Source: Eubacterium sp. ER2
GTDB taxonomy: Bacteria > Bacillota > Clostridia > Lachnospirales > Lachnospiraceae
Assembly: GCF_000765215.1 (NCBI RefSeq)
Contig: NZ_JPJE01000034.1
Coordinates: 1-63,498 of the forward strand
Direction of reading: 5' to 3'
Length of the DNA stretch: 63,498 bases
In this document: piece by piece, positions 1 to 30,315 of the stretch
How positions within the stretch are numbered: the stretch's first letter is position 1
Layout: each line of letters starts with the position of its first letter
Made by a program: the position numbers and the translations under genes
Notes under the pieces: generated by a model
Seen by the model: only the letters and a program-made list of their open reading frames with translations
What the model was told of the DNA's origin: nothing
Databases searched by the model: none

Positions 1-365
1 CCACCCGCTACTACTTCGTCTCCATCCTTGAACTGGATATTCATAGTCACATCTGTAGCGATCTTCTCAATATTGACAACCAGTTTTCCACCTTCTTCCG
101 CATAGAAGTCGCCGCTCGTTGTCATCCGATAGCCTGCCGGCACATACTGTGTAAGCACGGAATAGTTCTGCACGCCTGCCGGCACAGTATAATCACCGCC
201 TGCTACCGCTTCAGCTCCGTCTTTGAACTGGATGTTCATGGTTACACTCTCCTCAGCCTGCACAACCGACGCCCGACCCGGAAGCACAGTTGACATGCTG
301 GTAGCAGCCAAAGTCACGGCCAGCGCAGTCACAAGACATGCTTTTGCCAACTTTTTTCTATACAT
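1..365 (-). CDS. secreted protein with internal repeats (C-terminus beyond window)
   Basis: Reverse-strand reading frame opening with ATG at 365 behind a strong GGAGGAGAG ribosome site and running off the left edge after 121 complete codons. The first ~36 residues are a typical signal peptide (basic start MYRKKLAKA, then an Ala/Leu/Val core, then VVQAEE as a likely cleavage zone). After it, a unit starting VTMNIQFKDG and continuing through VAGG, VPAG and VVNIEK begins to repeat about 62 residues later with the same opening and the same DGxExVAGG continuation. The protein is therefore an exported repeat protein, perhaps wall-anchored, but the C-terminus that would show an anchor is not in the window. 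Family not recognised; function unknown. Confidence 0.7.
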   Translation of the reverse strand, partial: MYRKKLAKACLVTALAVTLAATSMSTVLPGRASVVQAEESVTMNIQFKDGAEAVAGGDYTVPAGVQNYSVLTQYVPAGYRMTTSGDFYAEEGGKLVVNIEKIATDVTMNIQFKDGDEVVAG

Positions 366-411
366 TGTTCTCTCCTCCTACTTTCTTCCCCTACAGGAAT
401 GATACTTCTGT

Positions 412-573
412 CTAAATACTGAAACTGCCAAAAACCACAGCAATCAGAACAGCACCAACGAGAAGCACATACCATTTTTTGTCACAGCTCCCATATTTAA
501 ACAGTATTATTTTACCCCCCCCCCGTTTATTTTTGTCAATACTTTCCAAATACTTATTTCTATATTTTTCCAT
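412..573 (-). CDS. small putative membrane protein containing a G10 tract
   Basis: A 53-codon reverse-strand frame starting MEKYRN and ending in a hydrophobic helix (VLLVGAVLIAVVFG), located just upstream of the secreted repeat protein. It contains ten consecutive G residues on the coding strand (515-524), read as Arg-Gly-Gly-Gly. No convincing ribosome site is seen before the ATG. It could be a small membrane peptide, a decayed gene or only leader sequence. The longer frame that runs back to 768 is an artefact of the tRNA gene and should not be used. Confidence 0.25.
   Translation of the reverse strand: MEKYRNKYLESIDKNKRGGGKIILFKYGSCDKKWYVLLVGAVLIAVVFGSFSI
515..524. repeat. homopolymer of ten C (G on reverse strand)
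   Basis: Uninterrupted C10 on the given strand, G10 in the reverse transcription direction. It lies inside the small ORF at 412-573 and upstream of the secreted repeat protein. Tracts of this length are prone to slippage, so the downstream reading frame or expression could vary. Confidence 0.9.
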
Positions 574-654
574 ATTCAATTTTATTTCAGTGAGAACAAT
601 GTATAGAGTATCCAGTAGGCTCCATATTTTGTGAAACCAAGAAAAAACAGCAAC

Positions 655-684
655 AAAAAGACCAGTGGAAATCCACTGGTCTTT
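655..684 (-). terminator. intrinsic terminator after tRNA-Pro
   Basis: Perfect 8-bp inverted repeat ACCAGTGG/CCACTGGT (661-668 and 673-680) with a 4-nt loop, extended by A/T pairs and followed on the reverse strand by a run of T. It lies directly 3' of the tRNA gene. Confidence 0.8.
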
Positions 685-688
685 CAAG

Positions 689-763
689 TCGGGGTAACAG
701 GATTCGAACCTGCGACCTCGCGGCCCCCAGCCGCGCGCTCTAACCAAACTGAGCCATACCCCG
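689..763 (-). tRNA. tRNA-Pro (GGG)
   Basis: Complete cloverleaf on the reverse strand: acceptor CGGGGTA/TACCCCG, D arm GCTC..GAGC, anticodon stem CGCGG/CCGCG around loop CTGGGGG (anticodon GGG), variable loop AGGTC, T arm GCAGG-TTCGAAT-CCTGT and discriminator A. The CCA end is not encoded. It charges proline and reads CCC/CCU codons. A terminator follows directly. Confidence 0.93.
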
Positions 764-916
764 GTCACAGATAGTATTATACTCGAAGTCTGTCGTATAT
801 TGCAAGTGTTTTTTTAATAAATCGTAAAATTCATATTATTTTTTTATTTTCGCCCTTATTGCGCCAACAAATCTGCCTGTATTCTACAATTATTATTTCC
901 CGTTTTCAGACAAATA

Positions 917-925
917 TGCTAAAAT
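917..925 (+). promoter_or_regulatory. extended -10 promoter candidate for dapB
   Basis: TGCTAAAAT is an extended -10 element (TG-N-TAAAAT) about 35 nt before the dapB start. No good -35 hexamer is visible at the usual spacing, which fits an extended -10 promoter. Confidence 0.4.
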
Positions 926-960
926 ACCTATAAAATCTTATGCGAAAGGAGTCCCTGATT

Positions 961-1761
961 ATGAAATTAATTGTAACAGGCCCCAGGGGAAAAATGGGCC
1001 GGCTCATCACGCAGGTCGCCGCGGAGCGTTCTGACATCCAGCTGATCGCCGGAGTGGGGCCGGCGGGAAGAGATTACATCGGAAAGGATCTGGGCGATGT
1101 GGCCATGACAGGACGCCGGCTCGGGGTGCCCGTAGTGGATGACCTGGAGGCTGTCATAGATGACTGCGATGTGATCATCGATTTTTCCACAAAGGAGACC
1201 GGGCTGGAGGTGCTGGAAAGCGCTGTGAAGCACAAGAAAGCGCTCGTGTGCGGCACTACCGGATTTTCACCGGAGGAGATGGCCAAATTCAGGGAGGCCT
1301 CTTCCTCCATTCCCATGCTCTACGCAGCCAACACCTCCAAGCTGGTAAATATCATGAACAAGCTTCTGGAGATCGTGACCACAGCGGTGGGGGACGAGGC
1401 GGACATAGAGATCCTGGAGATGCATGACCAGTGGAAGAAAGACGCCCCCAGCGGCACATCCAAAGAGATGGGCGAGATCATGGCCCACGCCATGGGTAAG
1501 GAGCTGGACGACATCGCCGTCTACGGCCGCCACGGCGTATCTCCCCGCGAAAAGGGTACCATTGGCTACCATTCGCTCCGGGCCGGCAACATTCCCAGCA
1601 GCCACACCGTGTACTTCGGCTTCATGGGGGAGAGGCTGGAGATCACCCACCACTCCTACAACTGGGAGTGCTTCGCCAGGGGAGCTGTGGACTGCGGACT
1701 GTACCTGACGGACAAGGAGCCCGGCTGGTACACCATCAAGGATGTGCTCCACCTGTCCTGA
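961..1761 (+). CDS. dapB: 4-hydroxy-tetrahydrodipicolinate reductase
   Basis: Reduces 4-hydroxy-tetrahydrodipicolinate with NAD(P)H in the lysine/diaminopimelate pathway (cytoplasm), feeding peptidoglycan and lysine synthesis. The 266-residue protein has the N-terminal nucleotide-binding loop GPRGKMG (residues 7-13), the CGTTGF segment and the active-site block EMHDQWKKDAPSGTS. That block keeps the catalytic His and Lys and the substrate-binding DAPSGT, although the usual HH pair is HD. I chose ATG 961 because AAAGGAG sits 9 nt upstream; an in-frame ATG at 940 would place this ribosome site inside the gene. The gene stands alone (no dapA beside it) and converges on dtd with a shared terminator. 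Confidence 0.93.
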   Translation: MKLIVTGPRGKMGRLITQVAAERSDIQLIAGVGPAGRDYIGKDLGDVAMTGRRLGVPVVDDLEAVIDDCDVIIDFSTKETGLEVLESAVKHKKALVCGTTGFSPEEMAKFREASSSIPMLYAANTSKLVNIMNKLLEIVTTAVGDEADIEILEMHDQWKKDAPSGTSKEMGEIMAHAMGKELDDIAVYGRHGVSPREKGTIGYHSLRAGNIPSSHTVYFGFMGERLEITHHSYNWECFARGAVDCGLYLTDKEPGWYTIKDVLHLS

Positions 1762-1771
1762 CCAGGAAAAG

Positions 1772-1816
1772 GGAGCGGCCGCGTCAATCCTTTTCGGATG
1801 ACTGCGGCCGCTCCTT
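1772..1816. terminator. bidirectional terminator between dapB and dtd
   Basis: Stem GGAGCGGCCGC (1772-1782) pairs with GCGGCCGCTCC (1804-1814), with more inner pairing between GTCAATCC and GGATGAC. A T-rich tail follows on the plus strand. It separates the convergent genes dapB and dtd. Confidence 0.75.
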
Positions 1817-1844
1817 CTTTGTGCTTCTTATCGCTCATTTACCG

Positions 1845-2291
1845 CTACAGTGTGTCAGAGTCCAGGATAATAGTGAAGGGGCCGTCATTTGTGAGGCTCA
1901 CCTTCATATCCGCCCCGAACTGTCCCCGCTCTACTGTGGGCACTGTCTCCTGGCATTTTTCAATAATGTACTCGTACATCTCCTCCGCCATGGACGGATC
2001 GCCCGCCTCGATAAAGCTGGGGCGGTTTCCCTTTTTGCAGTTGGCATACAGGGTAAACTGGGAGATGAGAAGAAGGCTCCCGCCTACCGTGTCCAGTGAC
2101 AGATTGGTCTTTCCGTTCTCATCCTCAAAAATGCGAAGGCCGAGCATTTTCTTTACCATCTTATCCGCGATCTCCTCTGTATCGCTGTCAGACACGCCGA
2201 TCAGCACCATAAAGCCTCTGCCGATTTCTCCGATCGTCTGACCGTCTACCTTTACGTCCGCATTTGTGACCCGCTGTATTACAAAACGCAT
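1845..2291 (-). CDS. dtd: D-aminoacyl-tRNA deacylase
   Basis: Hydrolyses D-amino acids (classically D-Tyr) wrongly attached to tRNA, a proofreading step in the cytoplasm. The 148 residues are the normal family length. The start MRFVIQRV, the signature SQFTLYA (about residues 77-83) and the C-terminal [11 protein letters not shown], which supplies the Gly-cis-Pro-type active-site loop, are all visible. The start is supported by AAAGGAGG just upstream. It appears to be a single-gene unit, with a CarD-like gene upstream on the same strand. Confidence 0.95.
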
Positions 2292-2355
2292 ACTGTTTCC
2301 TCCTTTTCGCTATCTTCTATCATCCACGAAGAGGAGGGAAATGTCAATACTCTCT

Positions 2356-2862
2356 TTATTTGTGTTTCTCTCTCTTCTTTCGTATATAGGACTCAACCTC
2401 GTTTTTTTCAATCCCCAGCGAAACAGCGAGCTCACCGAAAAGGTTTTCCTGGGCCGCGTGCAGGCAGCGTTCATCACCTGCGGTCACTTTTTTCCCCTGG
2501 GCCAGTCTCTTTTCCCTGCGGACATTGATCGTCTTGATCACCCGCACCCACTGCCTCGTGTCGCAGGTTCTCAGCGCCTTTTTTAAGGTTTCTTCTCTCT
2601 GCCGTTCATTATCGATAGGGATCATATCCATCCCGTCAATCTCGCCAATGAGCTGCTCCGCTTCCTGCCTGGAGATCACATACCGCATAATGATCTTCTC
2701 ACTGTCTGCCGGCACGTAGATCACGCCTCCTTTTGAGTACAGAGGTGACAGTGTATAGTAATCCTTTCCGGCGGACGCTTCCTCCAGGCGGATCGGACCT
2801 ATACTCTCCACTCTGCACACGCCGTGCTGCCCGCAGACAATATACGCTCCTGTCTCAAACAT
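2356..2862 (-). CDS. CarD-like transcriptional regulator
   Basis: 168-residue protein with a CarD/TRCF-type N-terminal module: FETGAYIVCGQHGVCRVESIG, then a YYTLSPLYSKGGVIYVPAD strand pattern. A basic helical C-terminal half follows, ending in KKREKHK. CarD-family proteins bind RNA polymerase beta and modulate open-complex stability. The start was placed at ATG 2862 because AGGAG lies 7 nt before it; the ATG 6 nt upstream is too close to that site. It lies between dtd and an EamA permease and has its own upstream terminator boundary, so it is probably monocistronic. Its targets cannot be told from the sequence. Confidence 0.8.
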   Translation of the reverse strand: MFETGAYIVCGQHGVCRVESIGPIRLEEASAGKDYYTLSPLYSKGGVIYVPADSEKIIMRYVISRQEAEQLIGEIDGMDMIPIDNERQREETLKKALRTCDTRQWVRVIKTINVRREKRLAQGKKVTAGDERCLHAAQENLFGELAVSLGIEKNEVESYIRKKREKHK

Positions 2863-2915
2863 TCCCATTCTCCTTTCTTTCATATTAAATAGTATTCCCA
2901 AAAATACCGTTACAT

Positions 2916-2953
2916 AAAAATCCGCCTATCCACAGATGTGGTAGACGGATTTT
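2916..2953 (-). terminator. terminator after the EamA permease gene
   Basis: Long imperfect hairpin AAAATCCG...CGGATTTT with TATCCACA/TGTGGTA inner pairing. On the reverse strand the stem ends in a T run. It separates the permease gene from the CarD-like gene and may work in both directions. Confidence 0.75.
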
Positions 2954-3043
2954 CATCTCTGTCTTTATTCTATTTTATCAGACAAATCATTTTTGCGTAA
3001 GGCTTTTCCAGAAAATATTTTATTTTCAGCATTTTTGCGAGCA

Positions 3044-3943
3044 TTACAGCGTCGATGGTTGTCTATTTTTACCCATTTTTTCCGGAAGCTGCGCCAGTAT
3101 GATCGCCGCAAACATCAGGACACATCCCAGCCCCTCCCTCACGGACAGACGCTCTCCCAGGATCACCCAGCCGGCCAGCACAGAAATGCAGGACTCCAGG
3201 CTCAGGATCAGCGAGGCCACAGTGGGATTCATATTCTTCTGTCCAATGATCTGCAGGGTATAGGCCACACCGCAGGACAGAACACCCGCATACAGGAGCG
3301 GGCCCCAGCTGCGCAGGGCTCCCTCCACTGTAGTGGTCTCAAAGGCAGCCATGGGAAACATGGACAGGATGCCTGCCACAAAGAACTGGATGCAGGACAT
3401 TTTCACTCCATCTGTTCTGGGCGCGAAATAGTCGATAATCAGGATATGAACAGCGAACAGCAGGGAGCCTATGAACACATAGATGTCGCCCCTCCCCACA
3501 CTGAAGGACTCTGTGATACACAGAAAGTAAAGTCCCGCAAGGGCCATTGCCACCGCCAGCCACACCTTCCATCCGGTCTTCTTCCCCAGAAACATGCCGA
3601 GCACCGGCACCAGGACGATGTAGAAGGCGGTCACAAACCCTGCCTTCCCCGCCGTGGTGTACTGGATGCCGATCTGCTGCATACTGCTGGCCGCGAACAG
3701 GGCCAATCCGCAGCAGAGTCCTCCCGCAATCAGGGTCTTTGTGCTCCCCTCTTCCCCGGCTGTCCTTTTGTTGATCTTCCCCAGGATATAGATGCAGGGG
3801 AGAAGCGCCACGCCGCCGATGAGGGATCGGATGCCGTTAAACCCGAAGGGGCCCAGGTAGTCCATTCCCACGCTCTGGGCGACAAAGGCGGTTCCCCAGA
3901 TAAACGCTGTCAGAAACAGCATACACGCGTTTTTTCTCCTCAT
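3044..3943 (-). CDS. EamA-family (DMT) membrane transporter
   Basis: 299-residue protein with about ten hydrophobic segments in two homologous halves, as in drug/metabolite transporters (RhaT/EamA type). Typical pieces are AFIWGTAFVAQ at the start of half one, the AGFVTAFYIVLVPVLG segment, and the second-half block LESCISVLAGWVILGERLS, which is the usual EamA signature. The start at 3943 follows AAGGAG at 6 nt spacing. It probably exports a small metabolite; the substrate cannot be inferred, as no biosynthetic gene is adjacent. Single gene with a terminator downstream. Confidence 0.85.
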   Translation of the reverse strand: MRRKNACMLFLTAFIWGTAFVAQSVGMDYLGPFGFNGIRSLIGGVALLPCIYILGKINKRTAGEEGSTKTLIAGGLCCGLALFAASSMQQIGIQYTTAGKAGFVTAFYIVLVPVLGMFLGKKTGWKVWLAVAMALAGLYFLCITESFSVGRGDIYVFIGSLLFAVHILIIDYFAPRTDGVKMSCIQFFVAGILSMFPMAAFETTTVEGALRSWGPLLYAGVLSCGVAYTLQIIGQKNMNPTVASLILSLESCISVLAGWVILGERLSVREGLGCVLMFAAIILAQLPEKMGKNRQPSTL

Positions 3944-4112
3944 ATATTCTCCTTCATTCCTCTGTCTGAGTTTTCTTCTGTCTGATTTTTCTGTATACAA
4001 CAACTTGTTCAGTATAACATATTCATGATTTTTTTGAAATGGTGTATACTAAAGAAAATGCGGGGCCTAAAACGCAAGATCCCTTGCAGCGGCAGAGAAT
4101 CAGGAGGAGCCT

Positions 4113-4766
4113 ATGTGGAAGTTCAGACGTTTTTTCTTAATATCGGGTATCCTGATGCTGGCGTCGGAGCTGTGGAAGCAGTACACCCTGACCTTCCTGA
4201 TCGGCGGCGTCAGCTACAACTGGTGGTATTTTCCCTTCCAGCTCTGTAGCATCCCCATGTACGTCTGCCTGCTCCTGCCCTGGGTCCGTAGCCGGCGCCT
4301 CCGTCAGATCCTCACCGCCTTTCTCGTGGATTTCGGCATGCTGGGCGGCGTCTTTGCCTTCTTTGACACCAGCGGCATGCACTATGGGTATCTTCCCCTC
4401 ACCATCCACTCCTTTGCCTGGCATATCTTTCTCATCCTGCTGGGCATTGCCGCTGCTCTCTCAGACCGCCTGGCCGTCGGGTGGAAAAATTATGCCGGGA
4501 GCGCCTGCCTCTATCTCGCCTGCTGCCTGGTCGCCACAGGGATCAATCTGCTTTGCGACCAATATGGCACCATCAATATGTTCTACATCAACCCGGACTA
4601 TCCCATGACCCAGAAGGTGTTCTCGGAGATCGCCGCCGTCCTGGGAGACACTGCGGGTATCTTCATCTATATCGGCGCCACTGTCGCAGGCGCAGCTGTC
4701 TTTCATCTGGGCTGGCGAAGCTTTGTTCTAAAATCTATAGAAAATCCCAATCATTCTGTCTTATAG
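4113..4766 (+). CDS. YwaF-like (TIGR02206-type) integral membrane protein
   Basis: 217 residues with six to seven predicted membrane segments. The pattern WWYFPFQLCSIPMYVCLLLP, an HSFAWHIFLILLG helix with conserved His, and the late motif INMFYINP match the YwaF/TMEM164-like integral membrane family, whose role in bacteria is unknown. The start follows AGGAGG at 5 nt. It is read away from the EamA gene and ends about 30 nt before the promoter of the sugar/nucleoside ABC operon. Function is not inferred. Confidence 0.7.
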   Translation: MWKFRRFFLISGILMLASELWKQYTLTFLIGGVSYNWWYFPFQLCSIPMYVCLLLPWVRSRRLRQILTAFLVDFGMLGGVFAFFDTSGMHYGYLPLTIHSFAWHIFLILLGIAAALSDRLAVGWKNYAGSACLYLACCLVATGINLLCDQYGTINMFYINPDYPMTQKVFSEIAAVLGDTAGIFIYIGATVAGAAVFHLGWRSFVLKSIENPNHSVL

Positions 4767-4798
4767 ATATTATAAATATAATTATAGATGTCATCAAT

Positions 4799-4827
4799 TT
4801 GACCACAAAACCACCTAGACGTACAAT
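4799..4827 (+). promoter_or_regulatory. promoter of the ABC/PsuG-like operon
   Basis: TTGACC (4799-4804) and TACAAT (4822-4827) separated by exactly 17 nt, 35 nt before the ATPase start. The A/T palindromic stretch just upstream (about 4765-4790) might hold an operator. Confidence 0.65.
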
Positions 4828-4861
4828 AGATTTAGACCGAAATCAAATCAGGAGACTTGCT

Positions 4862-5617
4862 ATGGAAACTGAAACTCCCCTTTTAATCATAAACAACATC
4901 TATAAATCCTTTGGGCATGTGCAGGCCTTGAGAGGAGCCTCCTTTTCTGCCCCCAGGGGCAAGGTGACTGCTATTGTGGGGGATAATGGCTCTGGCAAGA
5001 GTACCCTTGCCAAAATCATTTCCGGCTGCCTGAAGCCCGACTCCGGGGAGATTACCATCAATGGCAGAACCTATACTTCTCTCACGAACCATCAGGCTAT
5101 ATGTGAAGGAAATATCGCGACTGTCTATCAGGATCTGGCACTGGACAATCTGAAGAATGCCTATGAAAACATTTTTCTCGGAAGAGAGGATATTCATTTT
5201 GGCGTTTTTCTCAACAGAAAAAAAATGAGGGAAAAAGCTGCCGCACTTTTCCAGGCTCTGGCAATTGACATTCCGGACATGGAGCTCCCTGTGGGCAGTA
5301 TGTCCGGTGGACAGCGGCAGGCTATCGCCATCGCAAGAGCCATTGACATGGACAGGCAGATTTTGATTTTTGATGAGCCTACTTCTGCTATGGGTATGAA
5401 GGAGACTCAGCATACCATGGATCTCTTTCAAAGATTAAAGGATGAGGGGAGAACCATTCTTCTCATCAGCCATAATCTGTTTCAGGTATTTGATATTGCG
5501 GACCGCATCGCAGTTCTGGATAAAGGATGTTTTGTAGACACATTTTCCACAGCCGAAAGCAGCCCCCAAAAGCTGCATGATCGGATTGTAAAGGAAGAAA
5601 TGGAGCTTGAGCAATGA
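4862..5617 (+). CDS. CUT2-type sugar/nucleoside ABC transporter ATPase, single domain
   Basis: Cytoplasmic ATPase driving import with the permease and lipoprotein that follow. The 251 residues contain one nucleotide-binding domain: Walker A GDNGSGKST (40-48), Q-loop VYQD near 88-91, signature MSGGQRQ (147-153), Walker B ILIFDEPTS (167-175) and H-loop LISHN near 200. RbsA/MglA relatives usually carry two such domains in ~500 residues; this one resembles the half-length FrcA-like type. ATG 4862 is preceded by AGGAGA at 6 nt. It overlaps the permease by 4 nt (ATGA), so translation is probably coupled. Confidence 0.88.
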   Translation: METETPLLIINNIYKSFGHVQALRGASFSAPRGKVTAIVGDNGSGKSTLAKIISGCLKPDSGEITINGRTYTSLTNHQAICEGNIATVYQDLALDNLKNAYENIFLGREDIHFGVFLNRKKMREKAAALFQALAIDIPDMELPVGSMSGGQRQAIAIARAIDMDRQILIFDEPTSAMGMKETQHTMDLFQRLKDEGRTILLISHNLFQVFDIADRIAVLDKGCFVDTFSTAESSPQKLHDRIVKEEMELEQ

Positions 5618-6579
5618 CAAAATATATTGAGAAAAACAGTCAGCAGCTATTTCTTTTGATCGTAATTGTTGTAATAGGTGGGTTTCTGACCATAAAAAGC
5701 GAATACTTTCTAACTCCTTCAAATCTGATCAATATTGCAGACTCCTGTGGCTACCGTCTCATCATGGCCGTAGGGATGACCTTTATCATGGCGTCCGGCG
5801 TCATGGATCTGTCAGCTGGCTCCACTGTCTCACTTGCAGGTGTCATCACCGCTTGGATGCTCCATGCAGGGGCAGGAATTCCCCTGTCTGTAGCGGCCGG
5901 ACTGCTGACCGGAATAGCTGCAGGCGTTCTAAACGGGCTGCTCATCCACTACACAAAAATCAGTTTCTTTATCATCACACTGGCTATGAGCGGTATGCTT
6001 CGCGGCATTTCACTGATTATTACAGGCGGCCGTCCTATCACACGGTTTGGAGCGGCTTTTATGACAATCGGAACAGGCAGACTGGCAGGAATTCAGATCT
6101 CTGTGTGGATCGCAGTCATCCTGACACTGGCAGCCGCTGTTGTCCTGAACTGCACAAGATGGGGCAGCTATATCAGAACGCTCGGGAGTAATCCGGAGGC
6201 TCTTCAAAAATGCGGTATAGGCATAGCTGGATACCGCATTTCCGTACAGGCTGTCATGGGACTGGCAGCGGCTATTACAGCTGTCATCATCACGGCCAGA
6301 CTTAATTCTGCCGAGCCCAATGCAGGTATGGATATGGAGCTGGACGCCATCACTGCTGTTGCGATGGGCGGCACGCCTATCACAGGAGGGAAATCCCGCA
6401 TCAGCGGCACTATGCTGGCCGTTATCATTCTGGGCATCATTCGAAACGGTCTTACACTTATGAGCATTTCCTCAGATTACCAGCAGTGGATCACCGGATT
6501 TTTATTGCTGGTCTCTGTCCTCGTATCAGGGATCAGGATTAAAAATACAAAACAAAAATACACAAGAAAAGGAGAATGA
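5614..6579 (+). CDS. CUT2-type ABC transporter permease
   Basis: Membrane channel subunit of the same importer. The 321 residues carry eight to ten hydrophobic segments and RbsC/FrcC-like landmarks: MTFIMASGVMDLSAGSTVSLAG near 55-75, ITGGRPI near 140 and AMGGTPITGGKSRISGT near 255, the cytoplasmic loop that contacts the ATPase. It overlaps the ATPase gene by 4 nt and ends 3 nt before the binding-protein gene. The substrate class is ribose-like sugars or nucleosides by family; the exact ligand is unknown. Confidence 0.88.
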   Translation: MTKYIEKNSQQLFLLIVIVVIGGFLTIKSEYFLTPSNLINIADSCGYRLIMAVGMTFIMASGVMDLSAGSTVSLAGVITAWMLHAGAGIPLSVAAGLLTGIAAGVLNGLLIHYTKISFFIITLAMSGMLRGISLIITGGRPITRFGAAFMTIGTGRLAGIQISVWIAVILTLAAAVVLNCTRWGSYIRTLGSNPEALQKCGIGIAGYRISVQAVMGLAAAITAVIITARLNSAEPNAGMDMELDAITAVAMGGTPITGGKSRISGTMLAVIILGIIRNGLTLMSISSDYQQWITGFLLLVSVLVSGIRIKNTKQKYTRKGE

Positions 6580-6582
6580 CTA

Positions 6583-7665
6583 ATGAAAAAACTACTTAGT
6601 ATCTTATTGGCAGCAGTGCTGGCCATGTCTCTGCTTGTCGGATGCTCCGGCACAGACAGCAGCACAGAGGACACAGATAAGGCGCAGACCACCGAGACAG
6701 AAGAAACCTCCTCCAGCGTCGTGGATCAGATACTGGCCGATGTAGAGGCCGAGATGGACAGTCAGCTCGGAGAAGTTCCGGAAAAAAGCGCCGGTGAAAA
6801 AGTTGGTATTCTGATCAGCTCTACTTCCAATGAATTCTGGGCCACTATGAAGACACGCTACGAAGAAGCTGCCGCAGACGCAGATCTTGACATAGAAGTA
6901 TACGAGGCTTCTGCCGAAGATGACGCCGAGGGTCAGCTGGACGCACTAAATACTATGGTGTCCATGGATTTCGACGTGATCATCCTCTCCCCCATCAACG
7001 GCACTAATCTGATCCCCGGCATCGTGGCCGCCAATGAGAAGGGTATCAAAGTCATCAACCTTGGTCCCGGCGTAGATGAGGCGGCTCTGGAGGAGGCCGG
7101 CGGGCATCTGGATGCCAAGATCACTGTCAATTTTGAGGATCAGGGAAAAATGGTAGCGGAAGATATCGTGAAAAGGCTTGACGGCAAAGGCCAGGTAGCC
7201 ATTCTGGAAGGCATGGCAGGCGCTGCACAGAGTGAGGGACGTGTCAAAGGCGCTGAGGATGTATTTGCACAGAACGACGGCATCGAGGTAGTAGCGAGCC
7301 AGGATTGCAACTGGGATACAGATACAGCCTACGAGGCAACCCGCGACATTATGACAGCCAATCCGGATGTAAAGGCAATCTTTGCCTGCAATGACAATCT
7401 TGCTCTGGCAGCTGTACAGGCTCTGACAGAGCTGGGCAACAGCGATGTACTGGTATACGGCGTGGACTACACCTCAGACGCGAAAGCCGCTATCGAGGAT
7501 GGCACTATGATGGGCTCCATGACCTATTCAAGCGCCATCTACACGAAAGCTGCTATCTCCATGGCTATGAACCTGGCACAGGGCGGCAGCTATGACAAGC
7601 CCCTGTATCTTCCTCTGACACTGGTGACACAGGACAATGTGGCAGACATGGACGGATGGAAATAA
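6583..7665 (+). CDS. substrate-binding lipoprotein of the CUT2-type importer
   Basis: Extracellular lipid-anchored binding protein. MKKLLSILLAAVLAMSLLVG followed by Cys21 is a lipobox; residues 22-60 are a Thr/Ser/Glu-rich linker. The rest is a periplasmic-binding-protein fold of the ribose type (VGILISSTSNEFWATMKTRY near 84-103, DVIILSPING near 133, AIFACNDNLALAAV near 265). Ligand contacts are not assignable by eye. It is the third gene of the operon, 3 nt from the permease stop and 3 nt before the PsuG-like gene. That placement argues the transported compound is handed to that enzyme. Confidence 0.87.
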   Translation: MKKLLSILLAAVLAMSLLVGCSGTDSSTEDTDKAQTTETEETSSSVVDQILADVEAEMDSQLGEVPEKSAGEKVGILISSTSNEFWATMKTRYEEAAADADLDIEVYEASAEDDAEGQLDALNTMVSMDFDVIILSPINGTNLIPGIVAANEKGIKVINLGPGVDEAALEEAGGHLDAKITVNFEDQGKMVAEDIVKRLDGKGQVAILEGMAGAAQSEGRVKGAEDVFAQNDGIEVVASQDCNWDTDTAYEATRDIMTANPDVKAIFACNDNLALAAVQALTELGNSDVLVYGVDYTSDAKAAIEDGTMMGSMTYSSAIYTKAAISMAMNLAQGGSYDKPLYLPLTLVTQDNVADMDGWK

Positions 7666-7668
7666 ACC

Positions 7669-8433
7669 ATGAAACATCTGATCGAAACTGCCCTTTTGAC
7701 TCACGGCCTGTCATCACTGTCCAATGAATACATAAAAAAGCAATGGCCGTTTAAGGAGGCAAATCTTGCTTATCTTGAAAATGGCACAGTAAAGACAGGC
7801 ACTATAGAAGATTATCTGAAGCTGCGGGAACATCCTGAGCGGATGGCACGCATTGACTGTACTTCTCTGGAGAGTGCAAAATCACAGGGATTGTCCGGAG
7901 CTTTCACGGCTTCTGCCACCATGGCTGTGTGCCGTGAACTGGATATACCTATGGCAGTCACTGCCGGTATGGGCGGCATTGGCGATGTGGAAGGGGAAGA
8001 ACTCTGTCCGGATCTCCCGGCACTCGAGACGATACCCGTCATCCTGATTTCAACAGGCCCAAAGGACATGCTGGACAGGGCGGCCACTTTTTCCTGGCTC
8101 CGGAAGCATGGCGTTTCCGTAAAAGGAATCAACACAAGCTCCTGTACCGGTTACGTTTTTAAAGGCAGCCCTCTTCCTCTTGAGTCATTTGACCTGAGTC
8201 TTCCCGTTGCAGCCCCGCTTCTTCTCATCAATGAGATCCCTGTATCTGACAGGATCACTGACCGAGAAATACTGACGAAGGCCATCCAGGCAGGACACCA
8301 GGCAGCCGCAGAAGGAAGAGCCTATCACCCTGCTGCCAACAGGCGCATCGATGAACTTACAAATGGGTATTCTTCCATAATTCAGCTGTCTTCTCTGATT
8401 GAAAATGCCCGTGCTGCCAAAAAGCTTCCTTAA
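7669..8433 (+). CDS. divergent PsuG-like (pseudouridine-5'-phosphate glycosidase family) protein
   Basis: 254 residues, shorter than the ~305 of true PsuG. IETALLTHGL near the start aligns with the catalytic-Glu segment (Glu6); GAFTASATM (78-85) matches the TTVAATM block; GMGGIGDVEGEE parallels the GGIGGVHRGAE turn; and STGPKDMLD puts Lys132 at the Schiff-base/nucleophile lysine. The usual His of GVHRG is Val here, Asp115 fits the catalytic Asp of ADL, and the Lys of the TKVSRRDL segment is not evident. PsuG cleaves the C-glycosidic bond of pseudouridine-5'-phosphate. Altered residues plus an importer operon suggest a related ribosyl or C-nucleoside substrate. No psuK-like kinase is nearby. 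Start by position; ribosome site is weak. Confidence 0.65.
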   Translation: MKHLIETALLTHGLSSLSNEYIKKQWPFKEANLAYLENGTVKTGTIEDYLKLREHPERMARIDCTSLESAKSQGLSGAFTASATMAVCRELDIPMAVTAGMGGIGDVEGEELCPDLPALETIPVILISTGPKDMLDRAATFSWLRKHGVSVKGINTSSCTGYVFKGSPLPLESFDLSLPVAAPLLLINEIPVSDRITDREILTKAIQAGHQAAAEGRAYHPAANRRIDELTNGYSSIIQLSSLIENARAAKKLP

Positions 8434-8458
8434 AACGTAAAAAGGCAAAACTGACACA

Positions 8459-8496
8459 GGGCCATACCGCTCTTCAGACCTTACAGCGGTATGGCC
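8459..8496. terminator. bidirectional terminator between PsuG-like and MerR genes
   Basis: Perfect 13-bp stem GGGCCATACCGCT (8459-8471) with AGCGGTATGGCCC (8484-8496), followed by a T-rich tail on the plus strand and close to the MerR stop on the other. Confidence 0.85.
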
Positions 8497-8507
8497 CTCT
8501 TCTGTTA

Positions 8508-9350
8508 TCACACTGTTTTCACCGGCACCTTGATCTTCACTACATAGTCCTCCTCCCCGGCTCCCGCAATGTAGCTGATCATATCGTACACATAACAGTC
8601 CCCCGCGATTTCCAGACTTTCTCTCTCTATGAATTTCATCAGCTCCTCAATACTTTTTCCAAATGAATTGTAGGGTCCTTTATGCATGACGGATGCGAAA
8701 GTCCCTGCAGGCTTTCTCCTCACATCCTCTCTTTTGCACCATTCATCTGCCCATATATTTTCCGGTATCTTTGTAAAGAGAAAGCTTTCTTTCATCTCCT
8801 TCTTCGCCAGCGTTTCCCGCAAAATGATGGATCCCACAAAGGCGTGATTTCGGATGCCGCAAGCCTCGCATTTCCGGATATGCTCGCCCAAAAGTCTGGC
8901 CGGAGCGTTGCTGCTGTCCCACTCCCTGTACCCAAAATCAGTAACCAGCAGATGCTCTTCCCCGTCCCGCTCTGTCCGGGGTACACCGTACCGGGCATCC
9001 AGCGCCTCCTCCGTGATCTGCACCAGCTCCTGCATAAAGCCTGAGAGCTCCTCCAGCTTCTTTTGCTCTTCTTTGATCCTGCGCTGCTTTTCCCTGAACA
9101 TCTCCAGGAAATATCCCGTGTCAAAATTGCGAATACATTTCCGTATATCCTCCAGGGAACTGCCGGTGTATTTCATAGTCTGGATCAGATCAAAGTCATA
9201 GAACTGAACGGCCGTATAGTACCGGTAGCCATTGTTCCCCACACGGTCGGGCTTCAATATACCAATCCTGTCGTAATGGAAAAGCGTCTCTTTTGTAGTG
9301 CCGCACAGAGACGCAAACTGTCCCGTTGTCAGAAGCTGTTCTGTATTCAT
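8508..9350 (-). CDS. MerR-family multidrug-sensing regulator
   Basis: 280-residue DNA-binding activator of the BmrR/BltR type. Residues 7-75 form a MerR winged helix (LLTTGQFASLCGTTKETLFHYD, then YRYYTAVQFYDFDLI), followed by a long coiled dimerisation helix (about 85-120, REKQRRIKEEQKKLEEL). The C-terminal half is a GyrI/BmrR-like ligand-binding domain ending VVKIKVPVK. It is divergent from the MATE gene with an 82-bp gap holding an inverted repeat inside a long-spacer promoter. It probably activates the MATE gene when a hydrophobic cation binds. Confidence 0.87.
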   Translation of the reverse strand: MNTEQLLTTGQFASLCGTTKETLFHYDRIGILKPDRVGNNGYRYYTAVQFYDFDLIQTMKYTGSSLEDIRKCIRNFDTGYFLEMFREKQRRIKEEQKKLEELSGFMQELVQITEEALDARYGVPRTERDGEEHLLVTDFGYREWDSSNAPARLLGEHIRKCEACGIRNHAFVGSIILRETLAKKEMKESFLFTKIPENIWADEWCKREDVRRKPAGTFASVMHKGPYNSFGKSIEELMKFIERESLEIAGDCYVYDMISYIAGAGEEDYVVKIKVPVKTV

Positions 9351-9376
9351 CCTCAGATACTCCTCTCCGTTTTCTC

Positions 9377-9407
9377 TTGACTATTGTGTTACCCTATAGT
9401 TTACCAT
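9377..9407 (+). promoter_or_regulatory. MerR-type operator/promoter of the MATE gene
   Basis: TTGACT (9377-9382) and TACCAT (9402-9407) are separated by 19 nt, the over-long spacing typical of MerR-activated promoters. Within it lies the inverted repeat ACTATTG (9380-9386) / CTATAGT (9394-9400), centred near the middle of the spacer. The match of geometry and neighbour gene supports control by the divergent MerR protein. Confidence 0.6.
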
Positions 9408-9432
9408 TCCTTGTTGAGGAGAACAACCATCT

Positions 9433-10839
9433 ATGAAAACAGATACGCATACTACATTGAAGACAGATACTCATACTGCCGGCGTACAGGACAGCCATAA
9501 CCGGATGTTTGACGGGATGTCTCCCACCAGACTCTTCTTCCGGTGCGCCATCCCCAACATGATCAGTATGGCTGTGGTATCGCTGTACACCATCGCTGAC
9601 GGGATCTTTGTGGGCTACTATATCGGCGCTGAGGCGCTGGCTGCCATCAATCTGGTTATGCCTCTGATCATGATGAGCTTTGCCTTCTCGGACATGGTAG
9701 CCGTTGGTTCTTCTGTCCAGATTGCCATCTGGCTTGGAAAAAAGGACGGAAAAATGGCAGGGCGCATCTTTTCCACTGCCTGCCTTCTGATCCTCATCTC
9801 TGCTCTTATAATGGGGACACTGGCCTGGCTGTTTTCCTACCCGCTTGTGCAGCTGCTGGGGGCCACCGGGGAAGTGGCTGACCTGGCAGTGAAGTACATG
9901 CGTGTCTATGCGGCCTTCTCCGTCCTTATCATGCACTTTTTCGCCGTGGACAATTACCTGCGGATCTGTGGGAGGGTCCACTACAGCATGGCTATGAACG
10001 TAGGCATGTCGCTGGCAAATATTGTGCTGGACTGGCTCTTCATCGGCGTCTTCGGCTGGGGGATCGAAGCTGCCGCCCTGGCCTCCTGCCTCAGCCTGAT
10101 GTGCGGAAACATCATCTGCTTTCTCCCGTTTTTCGCGGGAAAGCTGCCACTTTGCTTCACGCGGGAATGGATCGGGCTCAGGCTGGTGGGAAATATCGTG
10201 GCCAACGGAAGCTCAGAGTTCTTCAACAATATCTCCGGCTCTGTGTGCATGATCATCTTCAACGCCGCCCTCCTGTCTGTCGGGGGATACATGGCAGTGG
10301 CGGCCTTCAGCATTATCATGTACGTGGACAGCGTAGTAAAGGCATTGCTTTTTGGTATGGGCGATGCCCTGCAGCCGGCCATCAGCTACAATTACGGGGC
10401 AGGAAGCCCTGCAAGGATCTGGGCCATAGAGAGGCGGGTCCAGGCTGCCGGGCTGCTGCTGGCACTGTTGGTGCTCACTTTCATGCAGATCGGCGGAGAA
10501 GCGCTGATCGGCCTCTTCGCAAAGGGTGACAGGGAACTGCTCAGCATGAGCGTCAGGGGCATGCGGATCTTCTCCCTGTCCTACCTCTTTACATGGTGCG
10601 CCATTTTGTCCGGCTCCTTTTTCACTGCTCTGAACCGGCCTGTCTTCTCCCTTGTGACTGCCGCGGGACAGACCCTCCTGTTCCCTGTCCTCTTTCTCTG
10701 TGTCCTGCCCAGGCTTCTGGGCCTGGACGGTATCTGGCTGTCCCCGGTGCTGGCCGGGGCCGCCTCCTTTCTGATGTGCATCCTGTTTCTCCTTGACACC
10801 AGCCGGCGCCTGTCCTCCGGGCAAAGACAGCGGGCATAG
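9433..10839 (+). CDS. MATE-family multidrug efflux transporter
   Basis: 468-residue, twelve-helix Na+- or H+-coupled drug exporter of the MepA/DinF type. After a polar tail, FDGMSPTRLFFRCAIPNMISM starts the first half; the second half begins about residue 255 (ANGSSEFFNNISG), and GMGDALQPAISYNYGAG near 310 is a common MATE loop. The N-terminus contains a direct repeat of KTDTHT (residues 2-7 and 10-15), unusual for the family; translation might begin later, for example at the MFDGMS methionine. It is divergently paired with a MerR regulator, which fits inducible drug efflux. Confidence 0.88.
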   Translation: MKTDTHTTLKTDTHTAGVQDSHNRMFDGMSPTRLFFRCAIPNMISMAVVSLYTIADGIFVGYYIGAEALAAINLVMPLIMMSFAFSDMVAVGSSVQIAIWLGKKDGKMAGRIFSTACLLILISALIMGTLAWLFSYPLVQLLGATGEVADLAVKYMRVYAAFSVLIMHFFAVDNYLRICGRVHYSMAMNVGMSLANIVLDWLFIGVFGWGIEAAALASCLSLMCGNIICFLPFFAGKLPLCFTREWIGLRLVGNIVANGSSEFFNNISGSVCMIIFNAALLSVGGYMAVAAFSIIMYVDSVVKALLFGMGDALQPAISYNYGAGSPARIWAIERRVQAAGLLLALLVLTFMQIGGEALIGLFAKGDRELLSMSVRGMRIFSLSYLFTWCAILSGSFFTALNRPVFSLVTAAGQTLLFPVLFLCVLPRLLGLDGIWLSPVLAGAASFLMCILFLLDTSRRLSSGQRQRA

Positions 10840-10867
10840 AGGCTTGCGCACAGAGGCTGCTGCGATT

Positions 10868-10896
10868 TTGACCTTTTCAAAAAAAAGCGTTATAAT
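10868..10896 (+). promoter_or_regulatory. strong sigma-A promoter for the DUF6465-type gene
   Basis: TTGACC (10868-10873), 17-nt spacer, TATAAT (10891-10896). It is about 70 nt before the ORF start, which has AAGGAGGT at good spacing. Confidence 0.7.
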
Positions 10897-10963
10897 ACAT
10901 TTCGTAGCAGAGAGAAATCCACCCTGCTTACATGCGATATGTGATCTAAGGAGGTAATCAGTC

Positions 10964-11296
10964 ATGAAAAAGAATAACAGAACATCACATACAGCTCAGG
11001 CAACCAAATCGATTGTCACAACAAAGGACACCACCAAGGCTATCGAGACAAGGGCCGGCGTCTTAAAGGACGCACCCGAGGCGCCAAAGGCCGAGCTGAA
11101 GACACAGATATTTCTCCAGTATCTCGGAACAGAGTGCAGCACTGACGATATTCTTGCAAAGGTCAAAGATATCTGGACAAAGGACATGGGAAAAAAGGCA
11201 GAGGATATGAAGACTATCAACGTGTATCTGAAGCCGGAGGAAATGGCAGCCTACTATGTGATCAACGACGAAACAACAGGAAAAATTGCTCTGTAA
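10964..11296 (+). CDS. DUF6465-type small protein
   Basis: 110-residue soluble protein with a Thr/Lys/Ala-rich, probably disordered N-terminal third (residues 1-40). The compact C-terminal region runs KTQIFLQYLGTECSTDDILAKVKDIW ... KTINVYLKPEEMAAYYVIND, the pattern of the DUF6465 family of clostridia. It has its own strong promoter and terminator, so it is monocistronic and probably well expressed. Function unknown. Confidence 0.7.
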   Translation: MKKNNRTSHTAQATKSIVTTKDTTKAIETRAGVLKDAPEAPKAELKTQIFLQYLGTECSTDDILAKVKDIWTKDMGKKAEDMKTINVYLKPEEMAAYYVINDETTGKIAL

Positions 11297-11312
11297 ATTC
11301 CTTATGAAAAAG

Positions 11313-11361
11313 AACACTCCCGACAGATGCGCAAAAGGCGGCATCTGCCGGGAGTGTTTTT
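11313..11361 (+). terminator. terminator after the DUF6465-type gene
   Basis: AACACTCCCG..CAGATGC (11313-11330) pairs with GCATCTG..CGGGAGTGTT (11341-11358), with a T5 tail. The arrangement could also stop reverse-strand transcription. Confidence 0.85.
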
Positions 11362-11411
11362 GCAGACCTATTCTTCGCTTCACAGGCCTTCTTCCCCGGA
11401 ATGGAAACGCT

Positions 11412-12155
11412 TTACACCTCCACACCGGAAAGCCGTATCATCCTGTCGTATGTAAAATGATTGAACACAGCGATGATCCTTCCCACTCCGATCATAGCCA
11501 GAATCGTCCCTATTCCAATCCCCACCAGATGTCCCGCAAAGACAAGGCTCACCGTGGTAGTGATGGCAATATTGGTCAGATCAAAGCAATTTTTTGTAAA
11601 GCCCACGCTTTTGCGGATACAGTCCGCTATAGCCTGTACAATGCCATCGCCCGGATTGGGAATAATGCGCATGTTCAGCGACATGGCCGCCCCGATCCCG
11701 GTCAGCACAATGGCGACCACAAGAAACAGGATCCGCAGGACCATCTGTCCCGGTGTGTCCTTCCCCTCTCCATACAGGTTGGGAATCACCGCCGAGAACA
11801 CATTCAGGAACCTGGTAAACACAAGGCTCAGCGGTATCTGCAGCAGATCCATGAGCACCGTCAGCTTTCTGTCCATCCTGTTTGCATGGGCAAGGACAGC
11901 CCCCTCCTCACCGGCCGCTCTCTTGCTGCGGATCAGGTGCAGGCAGATCTGGATGACAACAAAAATGCTGTACAGGGCAAGCGTCATATTTCCAAAATTG
12001 TGTCCGGAGATGACAGAAATACTGTAAGCCACAGATATGATAGGCGATACGCCCAGGCCGGTCTTCGTATTCAGCGTAAGTCCCAGCGCCAGGACAAGAA
12101 GTCCAAGAAGATAGAAAAACACACGGAACAAGGTGCTTCTGTTGATTTTTCTCAA
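11412..12155 (-). CDS. YczE/YitT-like multi-pass membrane protein
   Basis: About 247 residues with six hydrophobic segments. The motifs ALGLTLNTKTGLGVSPIISVAYSIS near the start, GIGAAMSLNMRIIPNPGDGIVQAIA in the middle, and FTKNCFDLTNIAI are typical of the YczE/DUF6198 membrane family. I prefer the TTG at 12155 as start because GGGAGGG sits 8 nt before it; a GTG 15 nt further upstream is an alternative. No transport substrate can be inferred. It is monocistronic and reads toward the DUF6465 gene terminator. Confidence 0.72.
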   Translation of the reverse strand: MRKINRSTLFRVFFYLLGLLVLALGLTLNTKTGLGVSPIISVAYSISVISGHNFGNMTLALYSIFVVIQICLHLIRSKRAAGEEGAVLAHANRMDRKLTVLMDLLQIPLSLVFTRFLNVFSAVIPNLYGEGKDTPGQMVLRILFLVVAIVLTGIGAAMSLNMRIIPNPGDGIVQAIADCIRKSVGFTKNCFDLTNIAITTTVSLVFAGHLVGIGIGTILAMIGVGRIIAVFNHFTYDRMIRLSGVEV

Positions 12156-12272
12156 GTAAATCCCTCCCACTTTCTGCTCCGTTATATTATTCTAAGGATT
12201 TTTGAAAAATCTGTCAAATCCATTTCCCGGAACTTCCCGAAAAACTCTTTTTCCGGAAGAATTTCCACATTT

Positions 12273-12617
12273 TCACACATAGCTTTGGACGCTCACCTCA
12301 TACAGATCCTCAAAGGGGATTTTTGTGTCCACAACCTTCAGCAGCCGGGCTGTGCCGTCTATCCTCGACACCATCCCCGTCACCTTCAGATATTCCCCCT
12401 CGCAAAAGTAGATGACTGTCACCATGTCATTTTTCCTGATCTGCCTGAGCGCGCGGTCCAGTTCCTCTCCCCGCTCCTCAGAGAGCTCTGCCTTGGGCAC
12501 TGTGATCTTTTCCTTTTTTCTGAGCGCCTCCTCATAGCCCTTCAGGGCTGCGAAGGGCATAAACTGCTTTGCTCTGTCCTGGCGGCTCATCCCGCCCCGC
12601 CCGTTTCTGTACGCCAT
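12273..12617 (-). CDS. YolD-like protein
   Basis: 114-residue protein with the YolD-like pattern RQDRAKQFMPFAALKGYEEAL at the N-terminus and a beta-rich remainder (MVTVIYFCEGEYLKVTGMVSRID). YolD proteins are encoded next to Y-family polymerases in Firmicutes and plasmids and are thought to act as UmuD-like partners. The start is ATG 12617 with an AAGGGGG stretch upstream; the gene overlaps the end of the polymerase gene by 86 bp, so the two share an SOS-controlled transcript. The upstream extension of this frame overlaps the polymerase and is not coding. Confidence 0.78.
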   Translation of the reverse strand: MAYRNGRGGMSRQDRAKQFMPFAALKGYEEALRKKEKITVPKAELSEERGEELDRALRQIRKNDMVTVIYFCEGEYLKVTGMVSRIDGTARLLKVVDTKIPFEDLYEVSVQSYV

Positions 12618-13947
12618 TTTCGCTTTCCCCCTTCTGTAATCGGCTCCACGTTTCTCCTCCGCTCCTGTGTCCTCCGATCTGGCGGTTTCTCTCCATAGTC
12701 GTCGCCCCCTCCTGCAGATCCATGCCTCTGACAACTGCATTTTTCCCATATTTTCCCTTGATCTCCAGAAGTGCCCTCTGCATCCGCAGCTCCCGGTCCA
12801 GCTCTTCCGGATCCGTAAACAGGTCGTACTGCCTCCAGGCTTCGTCCACCACATGATTGTACGTGACACTGATCCTTCTCACCGGCGTGCGGCGGTCCAC
12901 GATCCTGTCGTAAAGCCGGGCCGTGCAGGCCATGAGCTGGCGGGAAGAGCTGGTCGTCAAGGTCATGGGCTCTGTGCCGTGAGCAGCCTTTCTTTCTATC
13001 CTTCCGCTGTACCCCACATGAAGGGTCACAGAGTCTGTTACAAGCCCCTTCTCCACCAGCTCCAGGCTGAGAAGATCCGCCATCTCTCTGGCCGCCAGTC
13101 TGCCCTCCTCAAAGCTGTAGTCCCGGGGCAGCACCTGCCCGTTGGAGACAGAGCTGGATCTGGGCCTGTAGGCCTTGATATCCTCCATCGTAGTGGTCTC
13201 CCTGCCCCAGGCGTGATCGATGAGGAGCTCCGCGTCAACGCCGAACAGGCGGTAGAGCAGCCCCTCGTCCGCATGGGCCACCTCCTCCATAGTCGTCAGG
13301 CCGGACTGGGCCAGGCGCCGCTGTATCCCGCTCCCGATTCTCCAGAAGTCCGTCAGCGGCCTGTGTCGCCAGAGCTGTCTTTTGTAGCTCTCCTCGTTCA
13401 GCTCCCCCACATGCCCCTCGGAGTGCTTTGCCGTGATGTCCATGGCGATCTTGGCCAGATAGAGGTTGGTTCCTATCCCCACAGAGGCGGTGATGCCTGT
13501 GGTGTCATACACATCCTCCATAATCCTAACGCCCAGCTCCCGTCCGCTCATCCCATACATGTGCAGATACCGGGTCACATCCATGAACACCTCGTCGATG
13601 CTGTAGACATGGATGTCCTCTTTCGCAATATATTTCAGATAAATGCCGTATATCTCTGCCGAGCGGTCAATATAGAGCTGCATCCGGGGCGGCGCCATGA
13701 TATAGCTGATCCCCTTGGGGATCTCAAACACTCTGCACCTGCCCGGCACTCCCAGCGCTTTCATGGCCGGGGACACAGCCAGACAGATGGTCTTGTCGGT
13801 CCTCTCAGGATCAGCCACCACCAGGTTGGTGGTCATGGGATCCAGTCCCCTCTCCCGGCACTCCACGGAAGCGTAGAAGGACTTCAGATCTATGCACACA
13901 TATGTCTTCTGCTTTCTGCTGGTAACATTTTGAACAGTGTTCTCCAT
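12532..13947 (-). CDS. Y-family DNA polymerase (UmuC/DinB-like)
   Basis: 471-residue error-prone translesion polymerase of the Firmicutes UvrX/YqjW type. The palm motif CIDLKSFYASVEC (18-30) holds the first catalytic Asp, and YSIDEVFMDVT (about 115-125) the Asp-Glu pair; thumb helix-hairpin-helix and little-finger regions follow (GIGTNLYLAKIAMD; TLHVGYSG). The start has AAAGGAGG at 7 nt. A near-perfect LexA box lies just upstream. The C-terminal tail after ~430 is charged and overlaps the YolD-like gene in another frame. It is probably damage-induced. Confidence 0.9.
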   Translation of the reverse strand: MENTVQNVTSRKQKTYVCIDLKSFYASVECRERGLDPMTTNLVVADPERTDKTICLAVSPAMKALGVPGRCRVFEIPKGISYIMAPPRMQLYIDRSAEIYGIYLKYIAKEDIHVYSIDEVFMDVTRYLHMYGMSGRELGVRIMEDVYDTTGITASVGIGTNLYLAKIAMDITAKHSEGHVGELNEESYKRQLWRHRPLTDFWRIGSGIQRRLAQSGLTTMEEVAHADEGLLYRLFGVDAELLIDHAWGRETTTMEDIKAYRPRSSSVSNGQVLPRDYSFEEGRLAAREMADLLSLELVEKGLVTDSVTLHVGYSGRIERKAAHGTEPMTLTTSSSRQLMACTARLYDRIVDRRTPVRRISVTYNHVVDEAWRQYDLFTDPEELDRELRMQRALLEIKGKYGKNAVVRGMDLQEGATTMERNRQIGGHRSGGETWSRLQKGESENGVQKRAGRDEPPGQSKAVYALRSPEGL

Positions 13948-13970
13948 ATGAAATCCTCCTTTTTACTTTT

Positions 13971-13985
13971 TCGAACATATGTTCT
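13971..13985 (-). promoter_or_regulatory. LexA (SOS) box
   Basis: CGAACATATGTTC (13972-13984) matches the Firmicutes LexA site (CGAAC-N4-GTTCG type) and is palindromic. It is 25-38 bp upstream of the polymerase start, the expected operator position. Confidence 0.85.
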
Positions 13986-14100
13986 TTTCTTGATTATAGC
14001 AGGAGCGGGGAGGATTTTCAACTGGGGATTTTTGACAGGAAGATTTGGGTCATGGAAATCTGTACTCGGCTTTCCAATCTCCCCCAAAATTTGTACATGC

Positions 14101-14139
14101 AAAAAAGGACGAGGCCATTTCGTCGAAACGGCCTCGTCC
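14101..14139 (-). terminator. terminator of the FtsX/ABC operon
   Basis: Perfect 10-bp stem GGACGAGGCC (14107-14116) / GGCCTCGTCC (14130-14139) with a self-complementary loop; T6 follows on the reverse strand. Confidence 0.88.
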
Positions 14140-14155
14140 TTCGGCGCAGTGTTTC

Positions 14156-30111: not shown

Positions 30112-30239
30112 AAGAGATGCACGAGGGCATCTCCATTTCACACACGAATACACATCCCTACGTTGGCATTATCCAAATCAGGTTGCGGGTCGAGACGATA
30201 ACAGCCTCCTCTCAGCCGGCTAACGGCCAGCTCCCCGTG
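30109..30239 (-). promoter_or_regulatory. TPP riboswitch with terminator (thiW-thiC operon)
   Basis: On the reverse strand the aptamer (30239 to 30151) contains CTGAGA, ACCTGAT, GGATAATGCC and CGTAGGGA, the conserved thiamine-pyrophosphate (THI) elements. About 20 nt later comes a terminator: GAGATGC / GCATCTC (30127-30133, 30114-30120) with a T5 tail. TPP binding should favour this terminator and switch off thiW and thiC. Confidence 0.95.
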
Positions 30240-30315
30240 ACACGCTTATTCAACTGTATCTGATCACTTGTCATTATAGACCTGCCGGAGGTCATTTGCA
30301 AGGATTTTCGGTTCT

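Follow-up and report, generated by a model that had tools for sequence, protein, structure and literature searches.

The closest described systems to the locus reported here are, for the enzyme, Escherichia coli pseudouridine-5'-phosphate glycosidase (PsuG; YeiN; 4gij, 4gik, 4gil and 4gim), the alnumycin C-glycosynthase AlnA (4ex8) and TM1464 (1vkm); for transport, the CUT2 ATP-binding cassette (ABC) importers RbsABC and AlsABC; and, for gene partners in related genomes, the Type 1 mlp gene clusters of Kountz and Balskus (PMC10418091). The roles of the PsuG Schiff-base residue Lys166 and of Glu31 follow PMC7722734. We analysed a 63,498-nucleotide stretch of Eubacterium sp. ER2 (contig NZ_JPJE01000034.1), the whole of which we call the window, and focus on a four-gene operon at positions 4,862 to 8,433 in which a CUT2-type importer is joined to a PsuG relative. 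This pairing of a PsuG-fold enzyme with an importer is a real, conserved and unnamed variant, for which salvage of selenium or sulfur glycosides is a better lead than pseudouridine. Our literature search, which left most subscription journals outside its reach, found no paper on such a PsuG-like/ABC unit or on selenosugar-degrading genes.

A four-gene operon ending in a PsuG-fold enzyme

The four genes are separated by gaps of -4, 3 and 3 nt, as a first-pass annotation made from the sequence had described, and since the same order is seen again in other genera and families, the arrangement is more than chance. All four Pfam matches exceed their curated cut-offs. The features are as follows (members are the family relatives described below).

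4799-4827, + strand: promoter-like TTGACC-17-TACAAT, 34 nt ahead of the ATPase start, matching the consensus at 10 of 12 positions
Upstream of the ATPase gene, + strand: ribosome-binding-like AGGAGA
4862-5617, + strand: single-domain ABC ATPase, CUT2-like, 251 aa (PF00005 ABC_tran, 6e-32; first halves of the YtfR and AraG models)
5614-6579, + strand: CUT2-type permease, 321 aa (PF02653 BPD_transp_2, 2e-34)
6583-7665, + strand: substrate-binding lipoprotein of the ribose/allose-binding-protein type, 360 aa (PF13407 Peripla_BP_4, 1.3e-53)
7669-8433, + strand: PsuG-fold enzyme of a separate subfamily, 254 aa (Indigoidine_A, 1.7e-20)
7684-7686, + strand: codon of Glu6, aligned with PsuG Glu31 (Glu in 28/33 members, Asp in 3/33; 2/33 rows are truncated at this position)
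8062-8064, + strand: codon of Lys132, aligned with the PsuG Schiff-base Lys166 (Lys in 33/33 members)
8458-8498, no strand: 14-bp perfect inverted repeat with a 13-nt loop, seen by eye between the operon and a convergent MerR-type gene

The promoter evidence is weak because the region holds six such sites, close to the mean of 4.5 in shuffled sequence. The inverted repeat is a possible two-way terminator; the terminator scan found none, the 13-nt loop falling outside its rule.

The importer has the BPD_transp_2 permease and Peripla_BP_4 lipoprotein of a CUT2 system, as first proposed, and resembles RbsABC and AlsABC in its permease, binding-protein type and sugar-core pocket. It differs from them in its ATPase, which has one nucleotide-binding domain instead of two, and at RbsB positions 64, 90 and 235 of the binding protein. 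A fused ATPase of about 500 aa is usual in CUT2 importers, one-domain forms being known, and it is because of the single domain that we label the importer 'CUT2-type' only. The top NCBIfam matches of the ATPase are the first halves of CUT2 ATPases of that length (YtfR and AraG), all far under their cut-offs, and the nearest model to the permease is the ribose permease (210 bits against a cut-off of 398).

Recurrence of the importer-enzyme unit

Relatives were collected from one scan of genome contigs (3 loci) and from genome draws. The family draw gave matches at 1e-5 in 27/397 genomes, eight of which belong to the PsuG-like subfamily by score and identity; the class draw gave PsuG-like genes in 4/391, own genome included, and the near-relative draw in 6/98, among them five of 11 congeneric genomes. 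The phylum draw gave matches at 1e-25 in 24/398 genomes, of which 15, own genome included, reach at least 130 bits and the others look canonical; one further relative came from an additional search. L002 and L003, whose contigs equal those of G815 and G306 in length, are taken to be the same contigs, and each is counted once.

Among the resulting 33 loci, the gene is linked to importer genes at 26: within 10 kb there are CUT2-type genes at 22 (all three at 20), BMP-type genes at 4 and neither at 7. By contrast, 18 canonical psuG loci, with flanks of unequal length to those of the members, have the CUT2 set at none, a BMP-type ATPase at 2 and psuK at 12. Absences at G900a, G1012a, G167 and others are weak because these loci end near a contig edge. 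The check proposed at the outset, whether the last gene is unlinked from the transporter in related genomes, thus came out in favour of linkage, which supports joint action of importer and enzyme as a single unit.

The loci fall into three recurring layouts: the four-gene form of the window; one in which CUT2 genes are joined by a PfkB-type kinase and, in many cases, by a single or paired ADP-ribosylglycohydrolase-type gene; and a BMP form. A PfkB-type kinase lies within 10 kb at 12/33 loci and an ADP-ribosylglycohydrolase-type gene at 8 (BMP loci included). In genomes that have the four-gene form, the PfkB kinase lacks a close homologue (best 25-29% identity), and there is no ADP-ribosylglycohydrolase-type homologue at 1e-5. 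The reported lack of a psuK-like kinase was confirmed, none being noticed by eye among open reading frames of at least 80 aa in positions 1-16000, and the window's genome has nothing closer to the related operons' kinase than proteins of 27 and 26% identity. The absence is real for this operon type; it does not extend to the 12 relatives with a PfkB-type neighbour.

Several loci have further features. Pairs of ADP-ribosylglycohydrolase-type genes adjoin the PfkB kinase and importer in L035, L036, L037, L048, L054, L098, L099 and L103, and a PFL2-type glycyl radical enzyme stands beside the module in two genera (L036:1273-3543 and L054:7229-9520). In L034 (5662-8761), nitrogenase-like component 1 and NifH-like genes lie between the BMP importer and the PfkB/PsuG-like genes, with a double-cubane gene downstream. 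G900 and G1012 each have two PsuG-like copies, one by the importer and one alone.

A clade apart from canonical PsuG

The 254-aa protein has the PsuG fold and Indigoidine_A domain by Pfam, by alignment and by VIA-align 2 on Foldseek's matches, which upholds the initial assignment of the last gene to the PsuG relatives. It is the only Indigoidine_A match in the window's genome, and it has no NCBIfam match at E 0.01. Compared with E. coli PsuG it is shorter and about 20% identical, has no PsuK and is tied to an ABC importer. In the tree, 31 members and 21 canonical rows separate at 100/100, and the window protein does not group with E. coli PsuG; the tree omits the member fragments G167 and G1139 and the canonical PsuG_L018 and PsuG_L022. 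AlnA and TM1464 are not among the tree sequences, and the operon setting is unlike the biosynthetic one.

The family retains PsuG Lys166 (K132 here), Glu31 (E6 here) and Asp149; the rest of the active site is altered. Specifically, Lys93 aligns with Arg61 in the window protein, SRRD is replaced by D-C-T-S, His137 by Gly and Asp145 by Glu, although each of these features is common to at least 20/23 canonical rows. Lys93 and His137 occur in 22/23 of those rows, as does Asp145, which is kept in only 2/33 PsuG-like members. If Lys93, SRRD, His137 and Asp145 are substrate or metal ligands, as we take them to be, then loss of Lys93, SRRD and His137 would suit a substrate that lacks a 5'-phosphate, which agrees with the absent kinase; the 12 relatives with a kinase nearby weigh against this reading.

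A route close to the one first proposed, in which pseudouridine or another C-nucleoside is imported and split without being phosphorylated, would account for the fold, the retained Lys166, Glu31 and Asp149, and an operon type without a kinase, and BMP importers do occur near 2/18 canonical psuG loci. The notion of one uptake-and-breakdown unit stands; pseudouridine as its substrate fares badly, and we regard this explanation as quite unlikely, although a different nucleoside, perhaps even a C-nucleoside, may be the ligand. The protein lies in a separate clade, the motif K-x-S-R-R-D, His137 and mostly Asp145 are gone, no PsuK-type gene above 120 bits was found at the 33 loci, gene partners point to selenium or sulfur, and the selenium gene SelD occurs in only 9/28 canonical PsuG genomes, unlike the PsuG-like members.

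Other homologues were seen along the way. The Indigoidine_A protein of L018/L109 (G336:C11), with Lys166 replaced by Arg, His137 by Asn and a long C-terminal extension, is possibly not an imine enzyme. In L108 (7326-10657) and L117 (7352-10797), TrpD-type and TrpC/TrpF-type genes precede a PsuG homologue that is 45-46% identical to the E. coli protein; the assignment rests on a model in L108 only and was made by eye in L117. BMP-type ABC importers adjoin canonical psuKG in L106 and L116 and are possible pseudouridine importers.

A sugar-type binding protein

The lipoprotein has a lipobox, LLVGC (by eye), and its closest solved chains are allose- and other monosaccharide-binding proteins. Judged by an RbsB contact list that we assume to be correct, it retains the sugar-core pocket residues, which are the same across the binding proteins of related systems. 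RbsB position 235 is Tyr in 11/11 kinase-less systems and Met in 12/12 kinase-bearing ones (G900b is scored as kinase-less, yet a weaker PfkB adjoins it). This split suggests two ligand classes, or may reflect only two lineages.

Gene partners suggestive of selenium or sulfur

At several of the fuller loci there are genes for MtaA/CmuA-type methyltransferases, for corrinoid proteins and for double-cubane reductases, a gene set linked to methyl-selenide or methyl-sulfur metabolism in a paper on mlp gene clusters, where a His-Cys-Cys zinc site is taken as a mark of sulfur or selenium substrates (PMC10418091). That site is present in 12 methyltransferase-like sequences at PsuG-like loci, a count that leaves out two 28-bit sequences without the His ligand. 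Relatives' loci share these components, and in one case nitrogenase-like genes, with Type 1 mlp clusters; all of them are absent from the window operon, and Mlp and corrinoid queries returned nothing in the window, where the activase was not queried. The available Type 1 text makes no mention of pseudouridine, PfkB or a glycosidase.

The mlp-like gene set and zinc site therefore predict SelD in member genomes. SelD exceeds its cut-off in 30/30 of them (L004's genome left out), so that, among these, the family is found only in selenium-using genomes. It occurs in 27/50 first controls (family 6/22, same genus 5/6, phylum 16/22) and 35/80 further controls (other family genomes 13/35, phylum 13/17 and the canonical-PsuG genomes given above). 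Within family f1 the contrast at genus level is 8/8 member genera against 22/76 (p 1.3e-4), and outside f1 it is 18/18 against 35/48 (p 0.009); these p values are guides only, because the member genomes were not drawn independently. When SelD-positive genomes alone are compared, 29/30 members and 23/50 others have the double-cubane family above cut-off (p 0.002 at genus level in f1, 0.0006 outside f1). Selenium or methyltransferase markers lie within 10 kb at 13/33 member loci, omitting G811, whose corrinoid match is a MetH-like protein, against 0/18 canonical loci.

Two loci show most clearly selenium genes directly beside the unit. In G963 the order is binding-protein gene, PsuG-like gene, YedE, double-cubane, activase, double-cubane, SclA-like, SelD and YedF, the binding-protein gene having lost its 5' end beside a reverse-transcriptase-like stretch (by eye). 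In G1206 the same four-gene operon faces a LysR gene above the cut-off of the selenium-metabolism model LysR_Se; PMC5322559 counts both YedE and LysR_Se among candidate genes of selenium metabolism. Other parts of the window's genome mark it as a full selenocysteine user, which is consistent with a selenium role, if weakly so. ARAGORN found no selenocysteine tRNA in the 33 family loci and their neighbours. Overall, a tie to selenium is likely.

Several observations weigh against it. SelD is common, occurring in 62/130 non-members, and is uninformative within the window's genus because it is nearly universal there. No selenium or methyltransferase marker lies within 10 kb at 20/33 loci or anywhere in the 63-kb window, and the LysR beside the operon in L003 is not of the selenium type. 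A Cys at position 147 is present in only 23/33 members, and we know of no selenium-specific residue in the enzyme. Some neighbours point instead to adenine nucleosides.

These last neighbours bear on an alternative in which a 5'-blocked nucleoside or pentose is what the enzyme opens, salvaging 5'-methylthio- or 5'-methylseleno-adenosine or -ribose, or 5'-deoxyadenosine. No 5'-phosphate can sit on such a ligand, and the motif loss around Lys93 and His137 would follow from that. BMP-type importers, which are nucleoside-type, occur at 4/33 loci; an adenine deaminase gene adjoins the importer operon in L086 and lies near an orphan copy in L087; in L089, MtnA lies 5 kb away from an orphan copy; and PNP, MtnA and aldolase genes precede the CUT2-PfkB-DraG operon of G533. 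The nitrogenase-like genes of L034 are of a kind linked to methionine salvage in PMC10418091. These neighbours are confined to a handful of loci, PNP also appears at 1/18 control loci so that enrichment is not clear, and salvage of 5'-methylthioadenosine alone gives no reason for the selenium tie; this alternative is unlikely.

A slightly less probable explanation, and likewise an unlikely one, is that the importer takes up an ordinary sugar or aldose, that the enzyme acts as an aldolase or isomerase-like Schiff-base enzyme, and that the selenium tie is a by-product of a shared anaerobic lifestyle of amino-acid or purine fermentation. The intact sugar core of the binding protein fits it, as do the frequency of selenium users among non-members outside f1 and in the same genus. 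Against it, SelD is more frequent in members than in matched genomes, as is the double-cubane reductase when only SelD carriers are compared, and the unit has YedE/SelD/YedF and LysR_Se as direct neighbours.

Arsenosugars are 5'-blocked ribosides, and an arsenosugar or arseno-nucleoside ligand is conceivable in that the window's genome has a double-cubane cluster followed by ArsS (443 against a cut-off of 300) and arsenosugar-type glycosyltransferases. With ArsS or such a transferase at 0/33 family loci, this is very improbable. The stretch concerned (L125, G000:C21, 7016-17801) holds two double-cubane genes and an activase, then a rhodanese-like gene, ArsS and the glycosyltransferases. The window also has a thiamine pyrophosphate riboswitch (58.7 bits) at 30138-30247 on the - strand.

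Proposed function and implications

We favour, tentatively and at somewhat less than an even chance, an uptake-and-opening unit in which the sugar is opened at C1 through an imine with Lys132 and the leaving group bears sulfur or selenium, the latter part being suggested because of the gene partners in other genomes. The lipoprotein would bind a small sugar, or the sugar part of a glycoside, in the manner of ribose- or allose-binding proteins, and the permease with a homodimer of the one-domain ATPase would carry it in. The enzyme, assisted by Glu6, would then release the group attached at C1. With a carbon or nitrogen base there, the reaction would be nucleosidase-like; a bond to selenium or sulfur would be broken much more readily. 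The released group would most probably contain sulfur or, likelier still, selenium; methylselenol from a methyl-selenosugar is one example and a seleno- or thio-nucleoside base another. In the fuller systems the adjacent corrinoid methyltransferase might demethylate it, and it may end as selenide for SelD.

A narrower version, a dedicated selenium-glycoside system, is more speculative and on balance improbable. Selenosugars are an excretion form in mammals (PMC12936836). The importer would capture such compounds, for example methylseleno-N-acetylgalactosamine, or seleno-nucleosides; the lysine imine would break the C1-Se (or C1-base) bond; and the selenol would pass to corrinoid demethylases and SelD.

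If true, this would be the first enzyme family that scavenges selenium from sugars. These genes are probably annotated as pseudouridine-5'-phosphate glycosidase, the name given to 4-5 of 7 plasmid matches among other family members, and that label would then need changing. PsuG-fold enzymes are the known lysine-imine C-glycosidases, and a large, importer-fixed sister clade, found only in SelD-positive genomes, would extend lysine-imine chemistry to new leaving groups. With such a system, selenium metabolism would gain an identified transport route, and the ways in which anaerobes draw selenium from organic compounds could be put to the test.

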